Part shown: piece after piece, positions 49,131 through 57,539 of the stretch
Layout of the letters: each line of letters begins with the position of its first letter
Numbering within the stretch: the stretch's first letter is position 1
Assembly: GCA_944388075.1 (NCBI GenBank)
Contig: CALXHI010000012.1
Location: 1-64,000, forward strand
Reading direction: 5' to 3'
Origin: an uncultured Clostridia bacterium
Lineage (GTDB): Bacteria; Bacillota; Clostridia; Oscillospirales; Ruminococcaceae
Length of the DNA stretch: 64,000 nt
The notes under the pieces: model-generated
Databases searched by the model: none
What the model saw: only the letters and a program-made list of their open reading frames with translations
What the model was told of the DNA's origin: nothing
Position numbers and translations under genes: made by a program

Positions 49131-49718
49131 TTATGCAAGTTTCAACATGCCTGCAAGCAGATATCCGAATTCCGTTTTCAGCAATGCAATGGCATCTTCC
49201 TTCTCATAGCGTCCGCCGACGACATCTGCATTGAATCCTCGGCAGAAGCACCAGACCGCATGGCAAATGGCATCCAGTTCGAGCTTCTCATTGAGATAGC
49301 CTCGTGCCTGTGCCCGTTCCAGCACCGTGCGGATGGACTGCATCCACCACTGCCGATTGCGCTCCGACATGGAGTCATGCTCAAACATATAATGGCTGAA
49401 CTGCTGCTTGATATCATAGGTATCCGTCAGCACGCCGATCGCCAATTCCATCGCCGACCGCGAGAGTGCCTCCGGCGTATCGGTTTCCACAGCAAAACGG
49501 GAACGCATCCGCAATACGATGGACTCATACACACAGTGCAGCACCTCATCGCAGTTGTGGAAACGGTTATAGAACACACGATTGCTCTTTCCCATCTTTT
49601 CCATGATTTTCCGCACCGTTACGGTATGTGCGCCTTCTTGCAGCACGATTTGTTCAGCAATTTGAAGTATTTCCTCCGACCATTGATCACGAATCAATTT
49701 TTTTTCTTGGGCTTCCAT
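49131..49718 (-). CDS. TetR-family regulator heading the fab operon
   Basis: 195 residues. Residues 10-60 form the TetR helix-turn-helix (EEILQIAEQIVLQEGAHTVTVRKIMEKMGKSNRVFYNRF), followed by an all-helical ligand domain. It is the first gene of the tetR-fabH-...-accA run. The region upstream has a consensus promoter and nested palindromes just downstream of the -10 box, a good place for repression by its own product. A role as fatty acid synthesis regulator, sensing acyl-CoA or acyl-ACP, is inferred from position. It is not FabT, which is a MarR protein. The ribosome binding site is weak, and an 8-bp hairpin lies 10-32 bases upstream of the start. Confidence 0.88.
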   Translation of the reverse strand: MEAQEKKLIRDQWSEEILQIAEQIVLQEGAHTVTVRKIMEKMGKSNRVFYNRFHNCDEVLHCVYESIVLRMRSRFAVETDTPEALSRSAMELAIGVLTDTYDIKQQFSHYMFEHDSMSERNRQWWMQSIRTVLERAQARGYLNEKLELDAICHAVWCFCRGFNADVVGGRYEKEDAIALLKTEFGYLLAGMLKLA

Positions 49719-49952: not shown

Positions 49953-49981
49953 ATTATATCACAGTTTCCGAATTTTGTCAA
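49953..49981 (-). promoter_or_regulatory. Promoter of the tetR-fab operon
   Basis: On the minus strand TTGACA (49976-49981), 17 bases, TATAAT (49953-49958): a full consensus promoter, about 235 bases before the tetR start codon. Confidence 0.85.
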
Positions 49982-50273: not shown

Positions 50274-50885
50274 TCAAAACTTCGGTGGTTCGCCGCAGAT
50301 CTCGTTCTCGAGAATCTGATGTGCGATGGCGCTGCGAGTCATGCAGTTGTCCATCGCCTGCTTTTCGATATAGCGATGTGCCTCCTCCTCGGTCATGCCT
50401 CGCTGCGAGATCAATGCCCATTTCGCACGATTCACCAAACGAATCTCCTGAATCTTTTCCTCAACAGAAAGCGTCTTCTTCTCCATTTTCCGCAGACGTT
50501 CTCGAATCGCACACATATTGTCCAGCGACTGCGAAACAATCGCCGGTGTTACGGGCTTGCGCAAAGTCATGACACCATGGCGCACGATCTGATAATAGAC
50601 ACCGGTATAGACATCGGTGCGTGCGAGCAGCAAAGCCACACGGGTACTGTTCGTCACCACGTCAATCGCCAGCTTTGTGCCGAAATCATCGGGCAGCGGT
50701 GCATTGATGATGACAAAATCATAATCTCGTTCGAGCAGCATCTGTCTTGCCTGGCTGTTCGATTTTGCATACGCAATCGGTACATACTGCGTGGTCGGCA
50801 GCAGATTGGCAAGAAATTGATCAAAGCGTGAGTCGGCAGAAACGACCAACACGCTGTATGTCAATTGTTGTTGCGCCGGTGTCAC
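50274..50885 (-). CDS. ANTAR-domain response regulator (transcription antiterminator, NitR-like)
   Basis: 203 residues. The N-terminal receiver-like domain (about 8-125) lacks a clear phosphoacceptor pocket: the acidic pair of a true receiver is replaced by VVSADSRF near residue 15. A coiled region follows and the C-terminal ANTAR RNA-binding domain (about 140-198) reads EEKIQEIRLVNRAKWALISQRGMTEEEAHRYIEKQAMDNC, with the conserved Ala-Lys and RGMTEEEAH elements. ANTAR proteins bind paired hexaloop hairpins in nascent mRNA and prevent termination. Located right after glnA, it resembles NitR of clostridia, which controls glutamine and glutamate synthase genes (from memory). The leader at 57276-57349 of the same operon carries a fitting hexaloop. 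It is the last gene of the operon. Confidence 0.88.
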   Translation of the reverse strand: MTPAQQQLTYSVLVVSADSRFDQFLANLLPTTQYVPIAYAKSNSQARQMLLERDYDFVIINAPLPDDFGTKLAIDVVTNSTRVALLLARTDVYTGVYYQIVRHGVMTLRKPVTPAIVSQSLDNMCAIRERLRKMEKKTLSVEEKIQEIRLVNRAKWALISQRGMTEEEAHRYIEKQAMDNCMTRSAIAHQILENEICGEPPKF

Positions 50886-50912: not shown

Positions 50913-52127
50913 TTATCGTTGACGATACTCCATCAGCATGGCTTCGGGCAGGCAACGCTGAATGAACGCACTCTCTTTTGCACATTGCTTTGCCTCATTC
51001 AGCGAACGAGGCAGCATTTGCAGATGCGACAGCAGCGAGGCATCCGCCGTATAGAGATTCTCATCCACAGCCTGCGGCGGCTGCATATTCCCGCGAATGC
51101 CCTCCATCGCCGCATGAATCATCAAAGCATAGGCGAGATAGGGATTGGCAGTCGAATCCGGCGAACGCAGTTCCAGACGGCGATGCTTGCTGCCGGCAGC
51201 CGGAATCCGAATCAACTGGGAGCGGTTCTCATGCGACCATGAAATATAGATCGGTGCTTTATCCTGACCAAACCGCTTATAGGATTCTTCAGACGGATTG
51301 AGGAAAAGCGTCATCTCTCGAATATGAGCCAACACGCCGGCAATGACCGGTTGAAGCGACGCTTCTTCCCGATCGATCGGGTGAACCGAAAGATTGATGT
51401 GCAGGCCGTTGCCCGGATTGCCGGCAAACGGACGGGGCGAAAAGTCCGCCCAAACGCCGTTACGCTCTGCAACCGTGCGCACAACCGTACGCAATGTCAT
51501 GGTATTATCGGCGGCAGAAAGCGGATCGGAATGACGGAAGTCGATCTCATTTTGACCGGGACCTTCCTCATGATGCGAGCTTTCCGGCGTGATCCCCATC
51601 TGCGAAAGCGTCAGACAAATTTCACGGCGTACATTTTCCCCCTTGTCATCGGGTGCAATATCGAGATAACCGGCAAGGTCATAGGGCTTACGGGTCGGCT
51701 GTCCTTCGTTATCCCGCTCAAAGAGATAGAATTCCGATTCCGAACCGAATTGGAACCGATACCCCTCCTGCGCTGCCGCCCGAATGGCATTGCAGAGCAG
51801 ATAACGGGTATCCATCTCATAGGGCGTACCGTCAAACTCATAGATATTGCAGTACATCCGCACCACTCTGCCATGTTCGGGCCGCCAAGGCAGAATCGAG
51901 AGCGTAGACGGATCGGGACGCAAAAACAAATCCGAATGCACCACGCTGCGGAATCCCGCAATCGCAGAGCCGTCAAAGGCAATACCCTGCTCAAAGGCAC
52001 GGGGCAGCTCTTGGGGCATGATCGAAATATTCTTGGGTCTGCCGTAAATATCGCAGAATGCCAGTCGAATGAATTGTACATCCTCCTCGGCAATGAATTG
52101 CATAATCTCCTGCGGAGAATAATTCAT
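50913..52127 (-). CDS. glnA: Glutamine synthetase
   Basis: 404 residues, shorter than the usual GSI form of 440-470. It makes glutamine from glutamate, ammonia and ATP. The family signatures are IRLAFCDIYGRPKNISIMP, AFDGSAIAGFRSV near residue 55, GSESEFYLFERD near 125, SSHHEEGPGQNEIDFRHSDPL near 180, NPGNGLHINLS near 235 (a variant of NGSGMHxH) and RLELRSPDSTANPYLAYAL near 320. The ATG at 52127 with GTAGGTGATTCT upstream agrees with the family start; the frame is open for 33 codons upstream but is not family-like. A structured 99-base gap separates it from the GXGXG gene, and the ANTAR gene follows after 27 bases. Confidence 0.93.
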   Translation of the reverse strand: MNYSPQEIMQFIAEEDVQFIRLAFCDIYGRPKNISIMPQELPRAFEQGIAFDGSAIAGFRSVVHSDLFLRPDPSTLSILPWRPEHGRVVRMYCNIYEFDGTPYEMDTRYLLCNAIRAAAQEGYRFQFGSESEFYLFERDNEGQPTRKPYDLAGYLDIAPDDKGENVRREICLTLSQMGITPESSHHEEGPGQNEIDFRHSDPLSAADNTMTLRTVVRTVAERNGVWADFSPRPFAGNPGNGLHINLSVHPIDREEASLQPVIAGVLAHIREMTLFLNPSEESYKRFGQDKAPIYISWSHENRSQLIRIPAAGSKHRRLELRSPDSTANPYLAYALMIHAAMEGIRGNMQPPQAVDENLYTADASLLSHLQMLPRSLNEAKQCAKESAFIQRCLPEAMLMEYRQR

Positions 52128-52153
52128 AGAATCACCTACTTTACCAAATGTTT

Positions 52154-52214
52154 TTTGTCCTTGGACAAAGCAATACCATACAAAGGCACAGAGACGGTCT
52201 GTGTACAGTATTGC
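52154..52214 (-). other. RNA structure between the GXGXG gene and glnA
   Basis: On the minus strand GCAATAC (52208-52214) pairs with GTATTGC (52170-52176), enclosing a CACAGA/TCTGTG hairpin with loop CCGTC (52187-52203). A separate hairpin TTTGTCC/GGACAAA with a 2-base loop follows (52154-52169). No T-run follows, so it is not an intrinsic terminator. It may be a processing or regulatory site for glnA. Confidence 0.45.
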
Positions 52215-52226
52215 CACACATAGCAT

Positions 52227-52949
52227 TCAGTTCTGAACGTACATTTGCTTATACGGATTCTTGCTGTCGGGCGTCACGACTGTGAACGGTGCATCGAGGA
52301 TTTCCTCCACATTATAGCCGAACAGCTCACAGAACCGCTCGATATGCGCTCTCACCTGCTCCAAATCTTCCTTGGTTGCCGATTGCGCAGTCACTTGACC
52401 GGGAAACCGAATATCCTCACAGGTTGAACGAATCAGCATCTTGCCGCCGTGCATACCCGTACCGGGAAAATTGCCGACGATCGGCTCTTGCCCCTCATAC
52501 AGTCCCAGCACGATAATCAAACCACCGGCTTGGTACTCGCCGAGAAAGCTGCCCGTTCTGCCTCCGATCAGCAGGACCGGATATTTTTCGGCATATGCCT
52601 TCATATGGATGCCGGCACGATAGCCTGCATTGCCCTTGACATAAATCTTACCGCCACGCATGGCATAGCCGGTTGCATCGCCGATGTTGCCATGGACGAT
52701 GATTTCGCCTTCGTTCATTGTATCGCCGACGGCATCCTGTGCATTGCCATGCACGGTGATGGTCGCACCGTCCAAATATGCACCGAGTGCATTGCCGGGT
52801 ACGCCGTGAATATCGATATTCCGCCGGCTGAAGCCTGCTGCGATAAAGCGTTGGCCGCAGACATTGCGCAGTTCGACCTCTCCGTTGGAATTCCGCAATT
52901 GTTCATTCAGATCACGAAAATGGACTTGATCCGCATTGATTCGTTTCAT
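52227..52949 (-). CDS. Glutamate synthase GXGXG-domain subunit
   Basis: 240 residues matching the C-terminal GXGXG (COG0070) domain of the GltB large subunit as a separate protein. The right-handed beta-helix is seen as repeated segments GNALGAYLDGATITVHGNAQDAVGDTMNEGEIIVHGN, then GDATGYAMRGGKIYVKGNAGYRAGIHM and GRTGSFLGEYQAGGLIIVLG. In the fused enzyme this domain holds the ammonia tunnel in place. It overlaps the oxidoreductase stop by one base. Confidence 0.9.
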   Translation of the reverse strand: MKRINADQVHFRDLNEQLRNSNGEVELRNVCGQRFIAAGFSRRNIDIHGVPGNALGAYLDGATITVHGNAQDAVGDTMNEGEIIVHGNIGDATGYAMRGGKIYVKGNAGYRAGIHMKAYAEKYPVLLIGGRTGSFLGEYQAGGLIIVLGLYEGQEPIVGNFPGTGMHGGKMLIRSTCEDIRFPGQVTAQSATKEDLEQVRAHIERFCELFGYNVEEILDAPFTVVTPDSKNPYKQMYVQN

Positions 52950-54196
52950 TATACCACACCTCCGAAAATTTGTCCACGCTTTTCAGCAGAAAAAGATGCA
53001 AAACTCGGATCTTTTTGCAGCGCATCATAGGTCACCGAATACAGCGGCGTGCGATTTCGGATCATAGCGGTATAGATACCGGCCTTTTCAACATCACCGA
53101 TCAGCAAAAATCCGGTCATATGGTCATCCTTGGTATAGATGCGCTTGATGTGCTTGTCGTCACACTCCTCATAGCAAACACCGCCCTCCTGCTCGGAAAA
53201 GTAGGTACCTGCAGTCATGGCATGCAGACCGAAGAATCCAATCGAGTTCATCGGGATACCCTTGTCAAAGGCAGCCGCCTTGCCTGCCATGTTCTGACCG
53301 GCACAGTAGCCCTGCATATTGGCATTCGGCAACAGTGCCAGTACACGGTTTGCACCAATCGTCAGGTCATAGCCCTCGGTGCAGTCACCGGCTGCATAGA
53401 CATCGGGCATACTCGTTGCACAGCGGGCATCTACCACAATACCACGATTGCAGTTGCCGCCGGCTGCCTTGACCAAGCCGATATTGGCTCGTACACCCAC
53501 GGCTGCCACGAGAATATCAAAGTCCACCTTTGCACCGCTTTTCATGACTGCGGTCTGACCCTTGAACTCCGTGACCGTATCATTGAGCAGGAAGGAAATG
53601 CCGTGCTGCTCAAGATGCGCCTGCATTCTCGCAGCACACAAATCATCAAAGATACTCGATAAAATACGAGGTGCAAGGTCGCAAACCGTAATCGAGGCAA
53701 CACGGCCGTGAATGCCCTCGGCACACTTTAAGCCAATCAAGCCCGCACCGACGATCAGCACTTTGGCATCCGGCGTGAGAGCCTGTTCCAATGCCAACGC
53801 ATCGTCCAACGTCTGGAAGCGGAACTGCTTCTCGACCTTTTCCAATCCCTTCATCGGCGGTACAAATGGACTTGAACCGGCTGCGATGCAGAGTTTGGTA
53901 TAAGGCACGGACTCGCCGTCCTCGAGGAATACCTCATGGGTATGAATTTCAATCTTGTGGGCGGTCACACCATAGCGCACTGTTACATGGTTTTCCTCAT
54001 AGAAAGATTTCTTGCGGTACACCATGCGCTCGACCGTTGTTTTGCCCTCCAGATAGTAGGAGATCAGCGGACGGCAATAGGTCGGATGCGGCTCAGCCGC
54101 CAACACGGTGATGGGAGATTCGGTATCAACGCTGCGGATACCCTCAATGCAGCTGACTGCCGCAACACCATTTCCGATGATGACATATTGTTCCAT
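52949..54196 (-). CDS. NAD(P)H-dependent FAD oxidoreductase of the glutamate synthase operon
   Basis: 415 residues of the pyridine nucleotide-disulfide oxidoreductase family. The FAD-binding motif is at the N-terminus (YVIIGNGVAAVSCIEGI), the NAD(P) motif near 150 (VLIVGAGLIGLKCAEGI), and VYAAGDCTEGYDL near 280 marks the second FAD contact. It has no thioredoxin-type CxxC. Placed between the ferredoxin and GXGXG genes, it most likely supplies electrons from NAD(P)H to the split glutamate synthase. The ATG at 54196 has GAGGGTG upstream, and the ferredoxin stop is 5 bases away. Confidence 0.88.
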   Translation of the reverse strand: MEQYVIIGNGVAAVSCIEGIRSVDTESPITVLAAEPHPTYCRPLISYYLEGKTTVERMVYRKKSFYEENHVTVRYGVTAHKIEIHTHEVFLEDGESVPYTKLCIAAGSSPFVPPMKGLEKVEKQFRFQTLDDALALEQALTPDAKVLIVGAGLIGLKCAEGIHGRVASITVCDLAPRILSSIFDDLCAARMQAHLEQHGISFLLNDTVTEFKGQTAVMKSGAKVDFDILVAAVGVRANIGLVKAAGGNCNRGIVVDARCATSMPDVYAAGDCTEGYDLTIGANRVLALLPNANMQGYCAGQNMAGKAAAFDKGIPMNSIGFFGLHAMTAGTYFSEQEGGVCYEECDDKHIKRIYTKDDHMTGFLLIGDVEKAGIYTAMIRNRTPLYSVTYDALQKDPSFASFSAEKRGQIFGGVV

Positions 54197-54201
54197 AGCG
54201 T

Positions 54202-54636
54202 TCACCCTCTCTCCTCATATACGATAGCACGGTTCGGACAGCCCTTGACACATGCCGGTTCTCCGCAGCTGTTTTGCAGACACAGTTCACATTTTTGCAT
54301 GACGCCATTCTCATTCGGTGCGACCGCACCATACGGGCAGACCAGTACGCAGGTCATGCAACCGACGCATTTTTCCTGATCGATACGCACGACGCCGTCG
54401 GCATCTTTACTGATAGCACCGGCAATGCAGCTCTTGACGCAAATCGGGTCGGTGCAGTGACGGCAGTTGACCGCATAGGTAATCTGTCCGTCCTGCTCAA
54501 CACGGATGCGGGGGTAAATGATTTTTCCCTTCAGGGCAACCGCCATATCCGGCTTTCCGGAATTGGCAAATGCACAGTTATATTCGCAAAGATGGCATCC
54601 CAGACACCATTGTTCATTCACATAGACTCTTTTCAT
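54202..54636 (-). CDS. 4Fe-4S ferredoxin subunit (HycB/DmsB type)
   Basis: 144 residues with four Cys clusters: CLGCHLCEYNCA near 11, CRHCTDPICVKSC near 60, CVGCMTCVLVCP near 88 and CELCLQNSCGEPACVKGCP near 112. The pattern is that of the electron-transfer subunits of molybdo- and hydrogenase-like complexes. Here it stands between the FMN-binding glutamate synthase gene (gap of one base) and the oxidoreductase, so it is probably the wire between them. I chose ATG 54636 with AGGTGAGTAAG upstream. Confidence 0.88.
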   Translation of the reverse strand: MKRVYVNEQWCLGCHLCEYNCAFANSGKPDMAVALKGKIIYPRIRVEQDGQITYAVNCRHCTDPICVKSCIAGAISKDADGVVRIDQEKCVGCMTCVLVCPYGAVAPNENGVMQKCELCLQNSCGEPACVKGCPNRAIVYEERG

Positions 54637-54637
54637 C

Positions 54638-56143
54638 TTACTCACCTGCATGCGCAATTCCGAGAATTTCCAGTTCCTTCTCAGTCATTCCGACACCACG
54701 CAGCATCAAACGGTTGCCGCGCAGCGCTTCGATCGAATTGATACCCATACCGCCCAGCAATTCCTTGATTTCATGCTTCCAAGCATTCATCAGGTTGACA
54801 AGGCGTTCCGAGCCGACATCCGGATTCAGACGCTTGACGAGATCCGGACGCTGTGTTGCGATGCCCCAGTTGCACTTACCGGTCTGGCAGGTGCGGCAGA
54901 GATGGCAGCCCAAGGCGAGTACGGCAGCCGTTGCGACATAGCAGGCATCTGCACCGAGTGCGATGGCCTTAACCACATCGGAGGCACTGCGGATACTGCC
55001 GCCGACCACGAGCGATACACGATTGCGAATCCCCTCTTCTCTCAAACGGGTATCGACCGCTGCCAACGCAAGCTCAATCGGGATACCGACATTGTCACGA
55101 ATGCGAGTCGGTGCTGCACCCGTACCGCCACGGAAACCGTCAATGGCAATGATATCCGCACCGCTGCGTGCGATACCGCTGGCAATCGCTGCGATATTGT
55201 GTACGGCCGCAACCTTGACGATGATCGGTTTCTTATATTCGGTGGCTTCCTTCAGAGAATAGACCAGCTGACGGAGATCCTCAATCGAATAGATATCGTG
55301 ATGCGGTGCAGGCGAAATGGCATCCGTACCCTCCGGAATCATACGGGTACGGGACACATCGCCGACAATCTTTGTACCGGGCAGGTGACCGCCGATACCG
55401 GGCTTTGCACCCTGACCCATCTTAATTTCCACGGCAGCACCGGCTTCGAGATAGTCCTTATGCACGCCGAAACGACCCGATGCAACCTGAATAATCGTAT
55501 GCGCACCGTAGCGATAGAAATCCTGATGCAGACCGCCCTCACCGGTGTTATAGTAAATGCCAAGCTCTGTGGCTGCTCTGGCAAGGCTAGCGTGTGCGTT
55601 ATAGCTGATCGAGCCATAGCTCATGGCAGAAAACATCACAGGCAAAGAAAGCTGCAGCTGCGGTGCCAGCTTGGTATCGAGAGAACCGTCCTCCTTACGG
55701 GAGATCTGCTCAGGCTTTCTGCCGAGGTAGACACGGGTTTCCATCGGCTCACGCAGCGGATCAATCGGAGGGTTGGTTACCTGCGAGGCATTGATCAGGA
55801 TACGATCCCAGTAAACCGGCAGCGGATTGGGATTGCCCATCGACGACAGCAACACCGCACCGGAGTCCGCCTGCTTGTAGATTTCGAGAATGGTATCCTG
55901 CGACCAGTTGGCATTTTCACGCATCCTGCAGCGGTTCTTCATAATCTTCAAGGCTCGCGTCGGACACAGTGCAACACATCGTTGGCAATTGACACACTTG
56001 CTTTCATCCGACATCATCAAGCCGGTATCCGGATGATAGTAATGCACCAGATTGGCGCATTGGGTTTCACATACACGGCATTGAATGCAGCGTTGCTCGT
56101 TGCGCACTACTTCAAATGTGGAAATCATATCATTCACGCCCAT
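54638..56143 (-). CDS. gltB: FMN-binding glutamate synthase subunit with N-terminal ferredoxin domain
   Basis: 501 residues of the archaeal-type GltB central domain (COG0069). An N-terminal 2[4Fe-4S] ferredoxin (about 10-65; CIQCRVCETQCANLVH and CVNCQRCVALCP) leads into the FMN TIM barrel (about 90-470). The barrel shows FSAMSYGSISYNAHASLARAA, YYNTGEGGLHQDFYRYG, EIKMGQGAKPGIGGHLPG, AIDGFRGGTGAAPTRIRDN, VVGGSIRSASDVVKAIALGADACYV and the cysteines LGCHLCRTCQTGKCNWG of the 3Fe-4S cluster. It turns 2-oxoglutarate and channelled ammonia into glutamate. GGAAGGTG precedes the ATG at 56143, which overlaps the amidotransferase stop by one base. Confidence 0.93.
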   Translation of the reverse strand: MGVNDMISTFEVVRNEQRCIQCRVCETQCANLVHYYHPDTGLMMSDESKCVNCQRCVALCPTRALKIMKNRCRMRENANWSQDTILEIYKQADSGAVLLSSMGNPNPLPVYWDRILINASQVTNPPIDPLREPMETRVYLGRKPEQISRKEDGSLDTKLAPQLQLSLPVMFSAMSYGSISYNAHASLARAATELGIYYNTGEGGLHQDFYRYGAHTIIQVASGRFGVHKDYLEAGAAVEIKMGQGAKPGIGGHLPGTKIVGDVSRTRMIPEGTDAISPAPHHDIYSIEDLRQLVYSLKEATEYKKPIIVKVAAVHNIAAIASGIARSGADIIAIDGFRGGTGAAPTRIRDNVGIPIELALAAVDTRLREEGIRNRVSLVVGGSIRSASDVVKAIALGADACYVATAAVLALGCHLCRTCQTGKCNWGIATQRPDLVKRLNPDVGSERLVNLMNAWKHEIKELLGGMGINSIEALRGNRLMLRGVGMTEKELEILGIAHAGE

Positions 56144-57234
56144 CAGAACGCACCTTCCTTTACTCTCACAATCACCGGTTCTCCACCGACCGGCGCATAG
56201 ATGTCTTCGGCATCCGGCTCCATCACACGAATTGCAGCCTCTTCACTTGCGATAAAGACGAGATCCTCTTTATGACCAACCACCATGCTGCGCAGCTTCA
56301 AACGATCATTCAGTGCCATCAAGCCGCCGTTAAAGCCCAGGACGATCGAGAACGGACCGGTAATCAGAAGGCTCGGAAACACCGTACGCAGATAGGTCAG
56401 CTGTTCCTTGGCGGCTTCATCTTTGCGGCTAATGGTGCTCCAGAACGGTGCAGCCACCACATGCGCCGCCTCCTCCAACGTCAAGCCCTGACGGCGGAGC
56501 AGATAGTCCATGATATAGGTGATAACCTCGGTATCGGTTTGTAGCGTACACTTGTAGCCGAACATCTCGATGAACCGACGGTTGGCATCATAGGACGAGA
56601 TTTCGCCGTTGTGAACGATGGAGTAATCCAGCAACGTGAACGGGTGTGCACCGCCCCACCAGCCGGGAGTATTGGTCGGATAGCGGCCGTGTGCGGTCCA
56701 GCAATAGCCTTCGTATTCCTCAAGACGGTAGAACCGACCGACATCCTCCGGAAAGCCGACCGCCTTGAACGAACCCATATTTTTGCCGCTCGAGAACACA
56801 AAACAGCCGTCAAGCTTCGTATTGATTGTCATAACCAAGCGCAGGATATATTCCCGTTCATCGAGCTGAGAATTCTGCAAGGCAAACCGCCGGGGCAATA
56901 CAAAGTATCTCCAAATCAACGGTTCATCGGTGATTTCCGCAATGATACGGGTCGGAATCCGCTCACTCTTTGCGATATCGAGCTTCTCATTCATGAACGT
57001 TTCGCACTCCATGCGTGCCGCACGGGAGTCGAAAAAGATGTGCAAGGCATAGTAGTCCTTGTGCTCCGGATAAATGCCATATGCTGCAAAGCCGCCGCCC
57101 AATCCGTTGGAGCGATCGTGCATGGGTTTCATGCTCTCGATGATTTTCTCTCCGCTCATCCGTTCGCCGTTTTTGGAGATCATCGCAGAAATTGCACAAC
57201 CGGACGGGATGCGGACTTGACCTTCTGGTTTCAT
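56143..57234 (-). CDS. Class II glutamine amidotransferase subunit of glutamate synthase
   Basis: 363 residues. It releases ammonia from glutamine for the FMN subunit. The nucleophile is expected to be Cys13 in IPSGCAISAMISKNGE, so the first 12 residues must be removed or act as a propeptide. Later signatures are YCWTAHGRYPTNTPGWWGGAHPFTLLDYSIVHNGEISSY near residue 185 (the class II GATase Arg, Asn and Gly contacts) and LQTDTEVITYIMDYL near 235. The C-terminal 100 residues (starting EQLTYLRTVFPSLLITGPFSIVLG) complete the COG0067 fold. It is the first gene of the operon and is preceded by a leader with an attenuator. Confidence 0.9.
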   Translation of the reverse strand: MKPEGQVRIPSGCAISAMISKNGERMSGEKIIESMKPMHDRSNGLGGGFAAYGIYPEHKDYYALHIFFDSRAARMECETFMNEKLDIAKSERIPTRIIAEITDEPLIWRYFVLPRRFALQNSQLDEREYILRLVMTINTKLDGCFVFSSGKNMGSFKAVGFPEDVGRFYRLEEYEGYCWTAHGRYPTNTPGWWGGAHPFTLLDYSIVHNGEISSYDANRRFIEMFGYKCTLQTDTEVITYIMDYLLRRQGLTLEEAAHVVAAPFWSTISRKDEAAKEQLTYLRTVFPSLLITGPFSIVLGFNGGLMALNDRLKLRSMVVGHKEDLVFIASEEAAIRVMEPDAEDIYAPVGGEPVIVRVKEGAF

Positions 57235-57275
57235 AACATAACATTCCTTTCTCTTGGTTTACGTGCCAATGCCGA

Positions 57276-57349
57276 ACAAAAAAGGCGTTCATTCAAAACC
57301 AGACAGGTATAACTACCCTCTGCCTTTGAATGAACGCCTTTGCTCATTC
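57276..57349 (-). promoter_or_regulatory. Attenuator with ANTAR-type hexaloop hairpin in the glutamate synthase leader
   Basis: On the minus strand, hairpin A is GAATGAGC-AAAGGC-GTTCATTC (57328-57349): 8 bp closing a six-base loop with A at position 1 and G at position 4, the known ANTAR recognition pattern. Hairpin B (57300-57322) follows after five bases. The 3' arm of hairpin A is also part of the 5' arm of a 17-bp terminator (57325-57341 with 57281-57297), which ends in six T residues (57276-57283). Hairpin A and the terminator cannot coexist, so binding of an ANTAR protein would allow read-through. Confidence 0.75.
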
Positions 57350-57364
57350 GATATTCTAGATTGT

Positions 57365-57393
57365 ATTATATCACATCGTGAACGTTTTGTCAA
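57365..57393 (-). promoter_or_regulatory. Promoter of the glutamate synthase-glnA operon
   Basis: TTGACA (57388-57393), 17 bases, TATAAT (57365-57370) on the minus strand. Transcription should start near 57358, about ten bases before the hexaloop hairpin. Confidence 0.88.
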
Positions 57394-57403
57394 GCTCTAT
57401 TTT

Positions 57404-57458
57404 AAAAAAATAAGGGCAACACCGTACAAAGCCGTCAGGCGGGCTTTGTGCGGTGTTG
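57404..57458 (-). terminator. Intrinsic terminator after dapL
   Basis: CAACACCGCACAAAGCC pairs with GGCTTTGTACGGTGTTG (17 bp with one C-A mismatch), followed on the minus strand by CCCTTA and a run of T residues. It insulates the nitrogen operon promoter from the purF-carAB-dap transcript. Confidence 0.85.
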
Positions 57459-57539
57459 TCTAAGATTTTCTCTGTATCTGCATCCAAAAACGCTCGGAAC
57501 ACGGCTTGCGTATTCGAGCGTCTTGTACATTTGACAGAA

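Follow-up and report, generated by a model that had tools for sequence, protein, structure and literature searches.

The leader ahead of the split glutamate synthase operon, on the minus strand of the 64,000-nt stretch of uncultured Clostridia DNA that was analysed (the window), is very probably a transcription attenuator under ANTAR control through one hexaloop. The leader carries a small hairpin (hairpin A) whose hexaloop AAAGGC has the A1 and G4 of ANTAR targets and also forms the base of an intrinsic terminator. The operon ends in glnA and an ANTAR gene, the only one in the window's genome. From these features we infer that the ANTAR protein is the reader of hairpin A, that control is by antitermination and that nitrogen is the signal.

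The leader and the operon in the window

The promoter of the leader matches the sigma-70-type consensus at every position (Table 1), and the 8-bp hairpin A competes with a 17-bp terminator. Both features had been named in a preliminary description of this DNA, and sequence and folding agree with it. Hairpin A and the terminator are mutually exclusive because hairpin A, through its loop and 3' arm, supplies the 5' strand of the terminator. The entire leader folds as the terminator (-39.1 kcal/mol, z = -7.6), and the leader without the terminator 3' arm folds as hairpins A and B (-21.1 kcal/mol, z = -4.7). When the transcription start is placed from the promoter, hairpin A would lie about 8-10 nt or less past it. 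Hairpin A scores 36.1 bits with our covariance model (CM) R1, and a search of Rfam at gathering and relaxed thresholds returned no family for the element, only chance matches. Between an aminotransferase gene and the leader promoter there is a strong 20-bp hairpin (57414-57461) with T-runs after it on the minus strand, where transcription of the upstream gene probably terminates.

Table 1. Features of the leader and operon in the window
Feature	Position	Strand	Details
Sigma-70-type promoter	57365..57393	-	TTGACA-17-TATAAT, 12/12 consensus positions; -35 box TTGACA 57393-57388, spacer 17 nt, -10 box TATAAT 57370-57365
Hairpin A	57328..57349	-	8 bp, GAATGAGC[AAAGGC]GTTCATTC; putative antiterminator, ANTAR-type single hexaloop
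Hexaloop AAAGGC (A1, G4)	57336..57341	-	doubles as base of terminator stem
Hairpin B	57300..57322	-	apical part of terminator; sequence and loop not conserved; possible loop AGTTAT at 57314-57309 (A1 only)
Intrinsic terminator	57278..57341	-	17 bp, 57341-57325 with 57297-57281, around hairpin B; U-tract 3' of the stem extends to 57278
gltB1, amidotransferase part of split glutamate synthase	56143..57234	-	GATase_2; first operon gene
gltB2, FMN/Fe-S synthase part of glutamate synthase	54638..56143	-	PF01645, E = 7e-139
Ferredoxin-like protein	54202-54657	-	Pfam, ORF coordinates
Pyridine nucleotide-disulphide oxidoreductase	52949-54205	-	Pfam, ORF coordinates
gltB3, GXGXG domain	52227-52949	-	Pfam, ORF coordinates
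glnA, glutamine synthetase, 404 aa	50913..52127	-	PF00120, E = 3.5e-85
ANTAR protein gene	50274..50885	-	PF03861, E = 8.7e-15; GTG start, 27 nt past glnA

The genes of the operon overlap or almost touch, save for ~100 nt ahead of glnA. The glnA start is likely the ATG at 52127, the longest open reading frame beginning too early. The gap between gltB3 and glnA (52127-52226, minus strand) contains a small hairpin (52203-52187) within a longer inverted repeat. Matches to PF00120 and PF03861 bear out the earlier statement that the operon ends in glnA and an ANTAR gene. Downstream of the ANTAR gene, a further promoter with 12/12 consensus positions (49953-49981, minus strand) stands ahead of the ORF 49131-49718, for which Pfam gave no match.

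Conservation of the hexaloop element and alternative readings

Orthologs of gltB1 were collected from the genus and, for other Clostridia, from 80 named contigs. This comparison covered 100 leaders with upstream DNA, the window's own included, and used a search anchor that leaves the six loop letters free. The hairpin A element was present in 91 of the 100 leaders, and loop positions 1, 2 and 4 were A, A and G in all 91, while positions 3, 5 and 6 varied (AAAGGC 59, AAAGAC 13, AAAGGT 5, AAGGGC 4, AATGGC 4, AACGGC 3 and AAGGGT 3). The promoter too, including its 17-nt spacing, recurs at an equal distance from hairpin A in nearly all ortholog leaders. Two loci (L055 and L060) have variants that fall outside the anchor and still keep A1 and G4, and at L070 the element lies ahead of a gene farther upstream. 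The element was not seen before gltB1 at L052, and the gltB1 leaders of L054, L081, L091 and L093 are without it; at L054, L081 and L093 a hexaloop stands before amtB though it is absent before gltB1. The L048 leader reads GAAC[GATGAT]GTTC, in which G4 and the closing pairs are kept and position 1 is G rather than A; the L048 genome has two ANTAR genes.

The variable loop positions follow the terminator. With the pairing register fixed by the 3' arm alone, changes at positions 3, 5 and 6 track those in the terminator 3' strand in 86 gltB1 leaders (permutation p = 0.0004, 0.0002 and 0.0002, respectively), and the same covariation is found in 81 other leaders (p = 0.0002, 0.03 and 0.0002). Positions 1, 2 and 4 are unchanged even where the terminator partner mismatches. 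Together, these two patterns suggest that the loop must pair for termination and must also keep A1, A2 and G4 for something other than pairing. The preliminary description had named orthologous leaders as the place to check its attenuator, and there both the conserved hexaloop and its covariation with the terminator uphold it. The stem of hairpin A also covaries. Across the whole family 92% of cells are paired, and double-change cells number 80 compared to 29 in shuffles, which ignore relatedness, and 0-16 in slid controls. The closing pair is C-G in 54 of 54 distinct family members, and the pair next to it is G-U in 32, A-U in 20 and G-C in 2. In a scan of the 80 loci and the window, A1/G4 accounted for 157 of the 287 hexaloop hairpins that overlap a terminator, and the other 15 position-1/position-4 classes for 4-17 apiece.

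To examine how far the element extends beyond close orthologs, 292 genomes of the same class were surveyed. A strong R1 match was found in 25 genomes (27 matches in all), and 20 of the 27 were directly upstream of gltB1. Among gltB1 leaders that R1 missed, 23 of 33 still have a single hexaloop hairpin of the form C[AANGRN]G, such as AGAAC[AATGGC]GTTCT. An ANTAR gene was detected in 22 of the 25 element genomes and in 130 of the 267 others (Fisher p = 9.5e-5), an association that is inflated by operon linkage and shared ancestry; the remaining three element genomes gave no ANTAR match. A close gltB1 homolog occurs in 69 of the class-level genomes, of which 66 also have an ANTAR gene. The ANTAR gene directly follows glnA in 50 of 52 loci.

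The preliminary description had proposed that hairpin B is a half-site, making the leader a 'one-and-a-half' version of the two-hairpin motif. On this reading the leader is a degenerate dual-hairpin target in which hairpin A provides one site and a weakened second lies in hairpin B, whose possible loop AGTTAT has A1 only. Hairpin B does fold and lies directly 3' of hairpin A, and published targets consist of two hairpins 5-12 nt apart (PMC3369931). However, the sequence, length and loop of hairpin B are not conserved among the ortholog leaders, and its apical position in the terminator would let it form in both states. When hairpins of at least 3 bp were counted from hairpin A to the end of the terminator, a second A1/G4 hexaloop was found in 6 of 88 gltB1 leaders compared to 5.7 in shuffles, and in 5 of 91 other leaders compared to 4.7. 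Hairpin B was rejected as a second hexaloop on this agreement with shuffles, and we consider a degenerate dual target highly improbable. Most of the promoters found place the loop 13-16 nt after the -10 box, and the stem therefore starts at about the first bases of the transcript, with no room for another hairpin upstream. In a few distant leaders (G266, G230) the promoter is farther off, yet no second strong A1/G4 hexaloop lies between it and the element. Judged by these comparisons of leader sequences, the element is a single-hexaloop variant, one that would escape dual-hairpin searches.

Two further readings dispense with the ANTAR protein. The reader of the attenuator could be an sRNA, a small molecule or some other RNA-binding protein, with the ANTAR gene a mere neighbour, as the three element genomes without a detected ANTAR gene and the lack of an Rfam match would allow. 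This is quite improbable: the positions that never vary match the ANTAR signature, closing pairs included, the ANTAR gene keeps its place after glnA and its company with the element in the counts given above, and an aptamer is typically larger than a 22-nt hairpin. A CsrA-type hexaloop was also rejected; CsrA targets have GGA in the loop, which is missing here. The chance that the leader is a plain terminator, with hairpin A as a sequence by-product and no regulation, seems to us negligible. The very stable fold would suit such a terminator, and pairing does explain part of the conservation, but the 5' arm of hairpin A lies outside the window's terminator pairing and is nevertheless conserved and covarying, and A1, A2 and G4 stay fixed opposite mismatched terminator partners. 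ANTAR control through a single hexaloop is thus the reading that we carry forward.

The ANTAR protein, further sites and proposed mechanism

Pfam and an AlphaFold model (pLDDT 93.8) give the ANTAR protein a receiver-like domain, a coiled coil and a C-terminal three-helix ANTAR domain, the receiver falling under Pfam's cut-off. Foldseek matched the model to Rv1626, RNA-bound EutV (6ww6, TM 0.73) and AmiR. Mapped through 6wsh, Lys147, Lys149, Glu160, Tyr164 and Met172 of EutV correspond to Arg153, Lys155, Glu166, His170 and Met178, each of which is present in 72 of 72 orthologs. A His aligns with EutV position 164 in AmiR too, and EutV Arg168, which contacts an RNA ribose, is replaced by Glu174. 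The phospho-acceptor site is Asn61 in 70 of the 72 orthologs and Gln or Ser in the remaining two. Phosphorylation of this pseudo-receiver is therefore unlikely from the sequence, and since the phospho-aspartate is missing, kinase control is not expected. Of the 'ANTAR response regulator' in the preliminary description, the ANTAR domain stands and the phosphorylated receiver does not. Among the ANTAR proteins L191-L210, His at the G4-stacking position accompanies a receiver without the aspartate, and Tyr or Phe mostly occurs with it. Two genomes whose ANTAR protein combines Tyr/Phe with Asp (G048 and G078) are also without a hexaloop before gltB1.

The 157 A1/G4 elements precede genes for GSIII (~698 aa; 62), gltB1 (57), gdhA (14), amtB (3), purC (2), purA (2), glmS (2) and glnA (1), with no assigned gene for 14; gene names were given from recognisable sequence and not from Pfam runs. 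GSIII and gdhA leaders have the common stem AAGGC[AANGGC]GTCTT, and they often contain two tandem attenuators with separate hexaloops and terminators. Such pairs, spaced ~60-120 nt, were seen before GSIII in L080 (11286 and 11350), L085 (12255 and 12316), L067, L084, L094 and L102, all on minus strands. In the window's genome (G000), model R2 found one real site, ~7 kb past the window end (contig C12, 71063-71115; L119 and L212), where a promoter, AAAGGC[AACGGT]GTCTTG and a terminator are followed by GSIII. On the same strand 3' of this GSIII gene are genes for an AmtB-PII fusion, pyrG and purF. The end of this fusion is the sole PII match in the genome. The nitrogen and glutamine gene cluster of G000 is long and runs on into the window. 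Elements outside gltB1 in other genomes also stand before purC, a long glutamate synthase and asnB. Weak R1 matches elsewhere in G000 (L113-L117) lie within coding sequence and were discarded as chance, and most weak R2 matches in other genus members likewise fall in coding sequence; the bare pattern RCAANGNYGY, with 1372 matches, is too common for use. From these sequences, many relatives appear to deploy the one-hairpin switch across nitrogen genes. Of the closed circuit of one operon put forward earlier, the ANTAR-type hexaloop that competes with a terminator before the glnA/ANTAR operon is supported; the putative circuit would be wider, as sites also stand before GSIII and other genes.

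In the mechanism that we propose, transcription would begin a few bases ahead of hairpin A, making the target the first structure of the RNA. With no bound protein, the strand made ~40 nt later would invade hairpin A by pairing with the loop and 3' arm. The terminator, by far the more stable structure, would then form, and RNA polymerase would halt before gltB1. An active ANTAR dimer would instead bind the loop AAAGGC and its closing pairs, with G4 flipped onto His170 and Met178 as a plug. It would thereby keep the bases that otherwise form the foot of the terminator, allowing the split glutamate synthase, glnA and the ANTAR gene to be transcribed. Because the ANTAR protein is encoded within the operon, this arrangement would give positive feedback. 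In trans, the ANTAR protein would control GSIII in the window's genome and, among relatives, gdhA, amtB, purC, purA, glmS, asnB and others.

By analogy with partner-controlled ANTAR proteins, the signal may arrive through a partner of the pseudo-receiver; this is speculative, and glutamine synthetase is the obvious candidate. Glutamine synthetase would then be the glutamine sensor and, when feedback-inhibited, would hold or release the antiterminator, resetting transcription of its own gene and of those for glutamine-making and glutamine-using enzymes. Glutamine synthetase acts on GlnR and TnrA in Bacillus in a like manner. The idea can be extended to a Clostridia-wide glutamine regulon, where an ANTAR protein blind to phosphorylation and signalled by glutamine synthetase itself would read the single-hexaloop attenuators; we put this forward tentatively and think it unlikely as a whole.

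For many uncultured Clostridia, the survey reveals how central nitrogen assimilation is probably controlled, including glutamine synthetase, glutamate synthase, glutamate dehydrogenase, ammonium transport and glutamine-using enzymes, and it yields a short sequence pattern for finding this regulon in their genomes.

Comparison with known ANTAR systems

The element resembles the dual-hexaloop antiterminators, such as EutV/eutP of Enterococcus faecalis, NasR/nasF and AmiR/amiE, in its A1/G4 hexaloop, its C-G closing pair beside A-U or G-U, its exclusion of an intrinsic terminator, an ANTAR protein in the genome and its link to nitrogen genes (PMC3369931, PMC8934654). The published ANTAR signature is a hexaloop with A1 and G4, and EutV requires the closing pairs AC...GU (PMC3369931), which the pairs RC[...]GU found here resemble. 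G4 of the loop flips out onto an aromatic residue (PMC8934654). In contrast to these systems, the window leader has one hexaloop at its extreme 5' end, has no recruitment hairpin P1 and carries hairpin B as a spacer that separates the antiterminator hairpin from the terminator 3' arm. Antitermination in eut, the one well-studied case, requires both hexaloops (PMC3369931, PMC8934654); induction is abolished at eutP when P1 is deleted, and changes to the linker are not tolerated (PMC3369931). Given the eut requirement for both, one hexaloop might not be enough in the window leader, and a second contact may be concealed in hairpin B. Alternatively, the spacer with hairpin B could be the time-buyer in single-hexaloop leaders, giving the time that P1 would give in eut.

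The two kinds of system also differ in their proteins. In AmiR-AmiC, control is exerted by a partner (PMC8934654). Unlike an EutV-type response regulator, the window's ANTAR protein has a receiver without the phospho-acceptor aspartate. The NitR gene adjoins glnA, and the window's ANTAR protein is likewise tied to GS/GOGAT genes and encoded next to glnA. NitR is cited as a clostridial antiterminator tied to ammonia assimilation in PMC4676874, which also reports that an ANTAR gene and a glutamate synthase cluster of Clostridium thermocellum (Clo1313_2030-2036) co-vary in expression. This co-expression is compatible with the proposed mechanism, and for NitR and C. thermocellum alike the text consulted describes no RNA target of the window's kind. 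The published target searches consulted look for two hexaloops. ANTAR control of glutamate synthase, nitrogenase and other nitrogen operons has been predicted in Desulfotomaculum and Pelobacter with a search model that demands two hairpins (PMC3369931), a model that single-hexaloop leaders fail.

The large natural set of single-hexaloop leaders allows a direct test of whether the recruitment hairpin is essential or buys time. A precedent is Walshe et al. 2022, the only work found to pair 'single hexaloop' with ANTAR in the openly searchable full-text literature. There, one dimer binds one hexaloop and two are retained as needed for antitermination; the minimal site is redefined as one hexaloop, and single-hexaloop targets are foreseen (PMC8934654). 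The leaders described here agree with that minimal site. Whereas single targets were expected where transcription sets no time limit (PMC8934654), here they occur in transcription attenuators.
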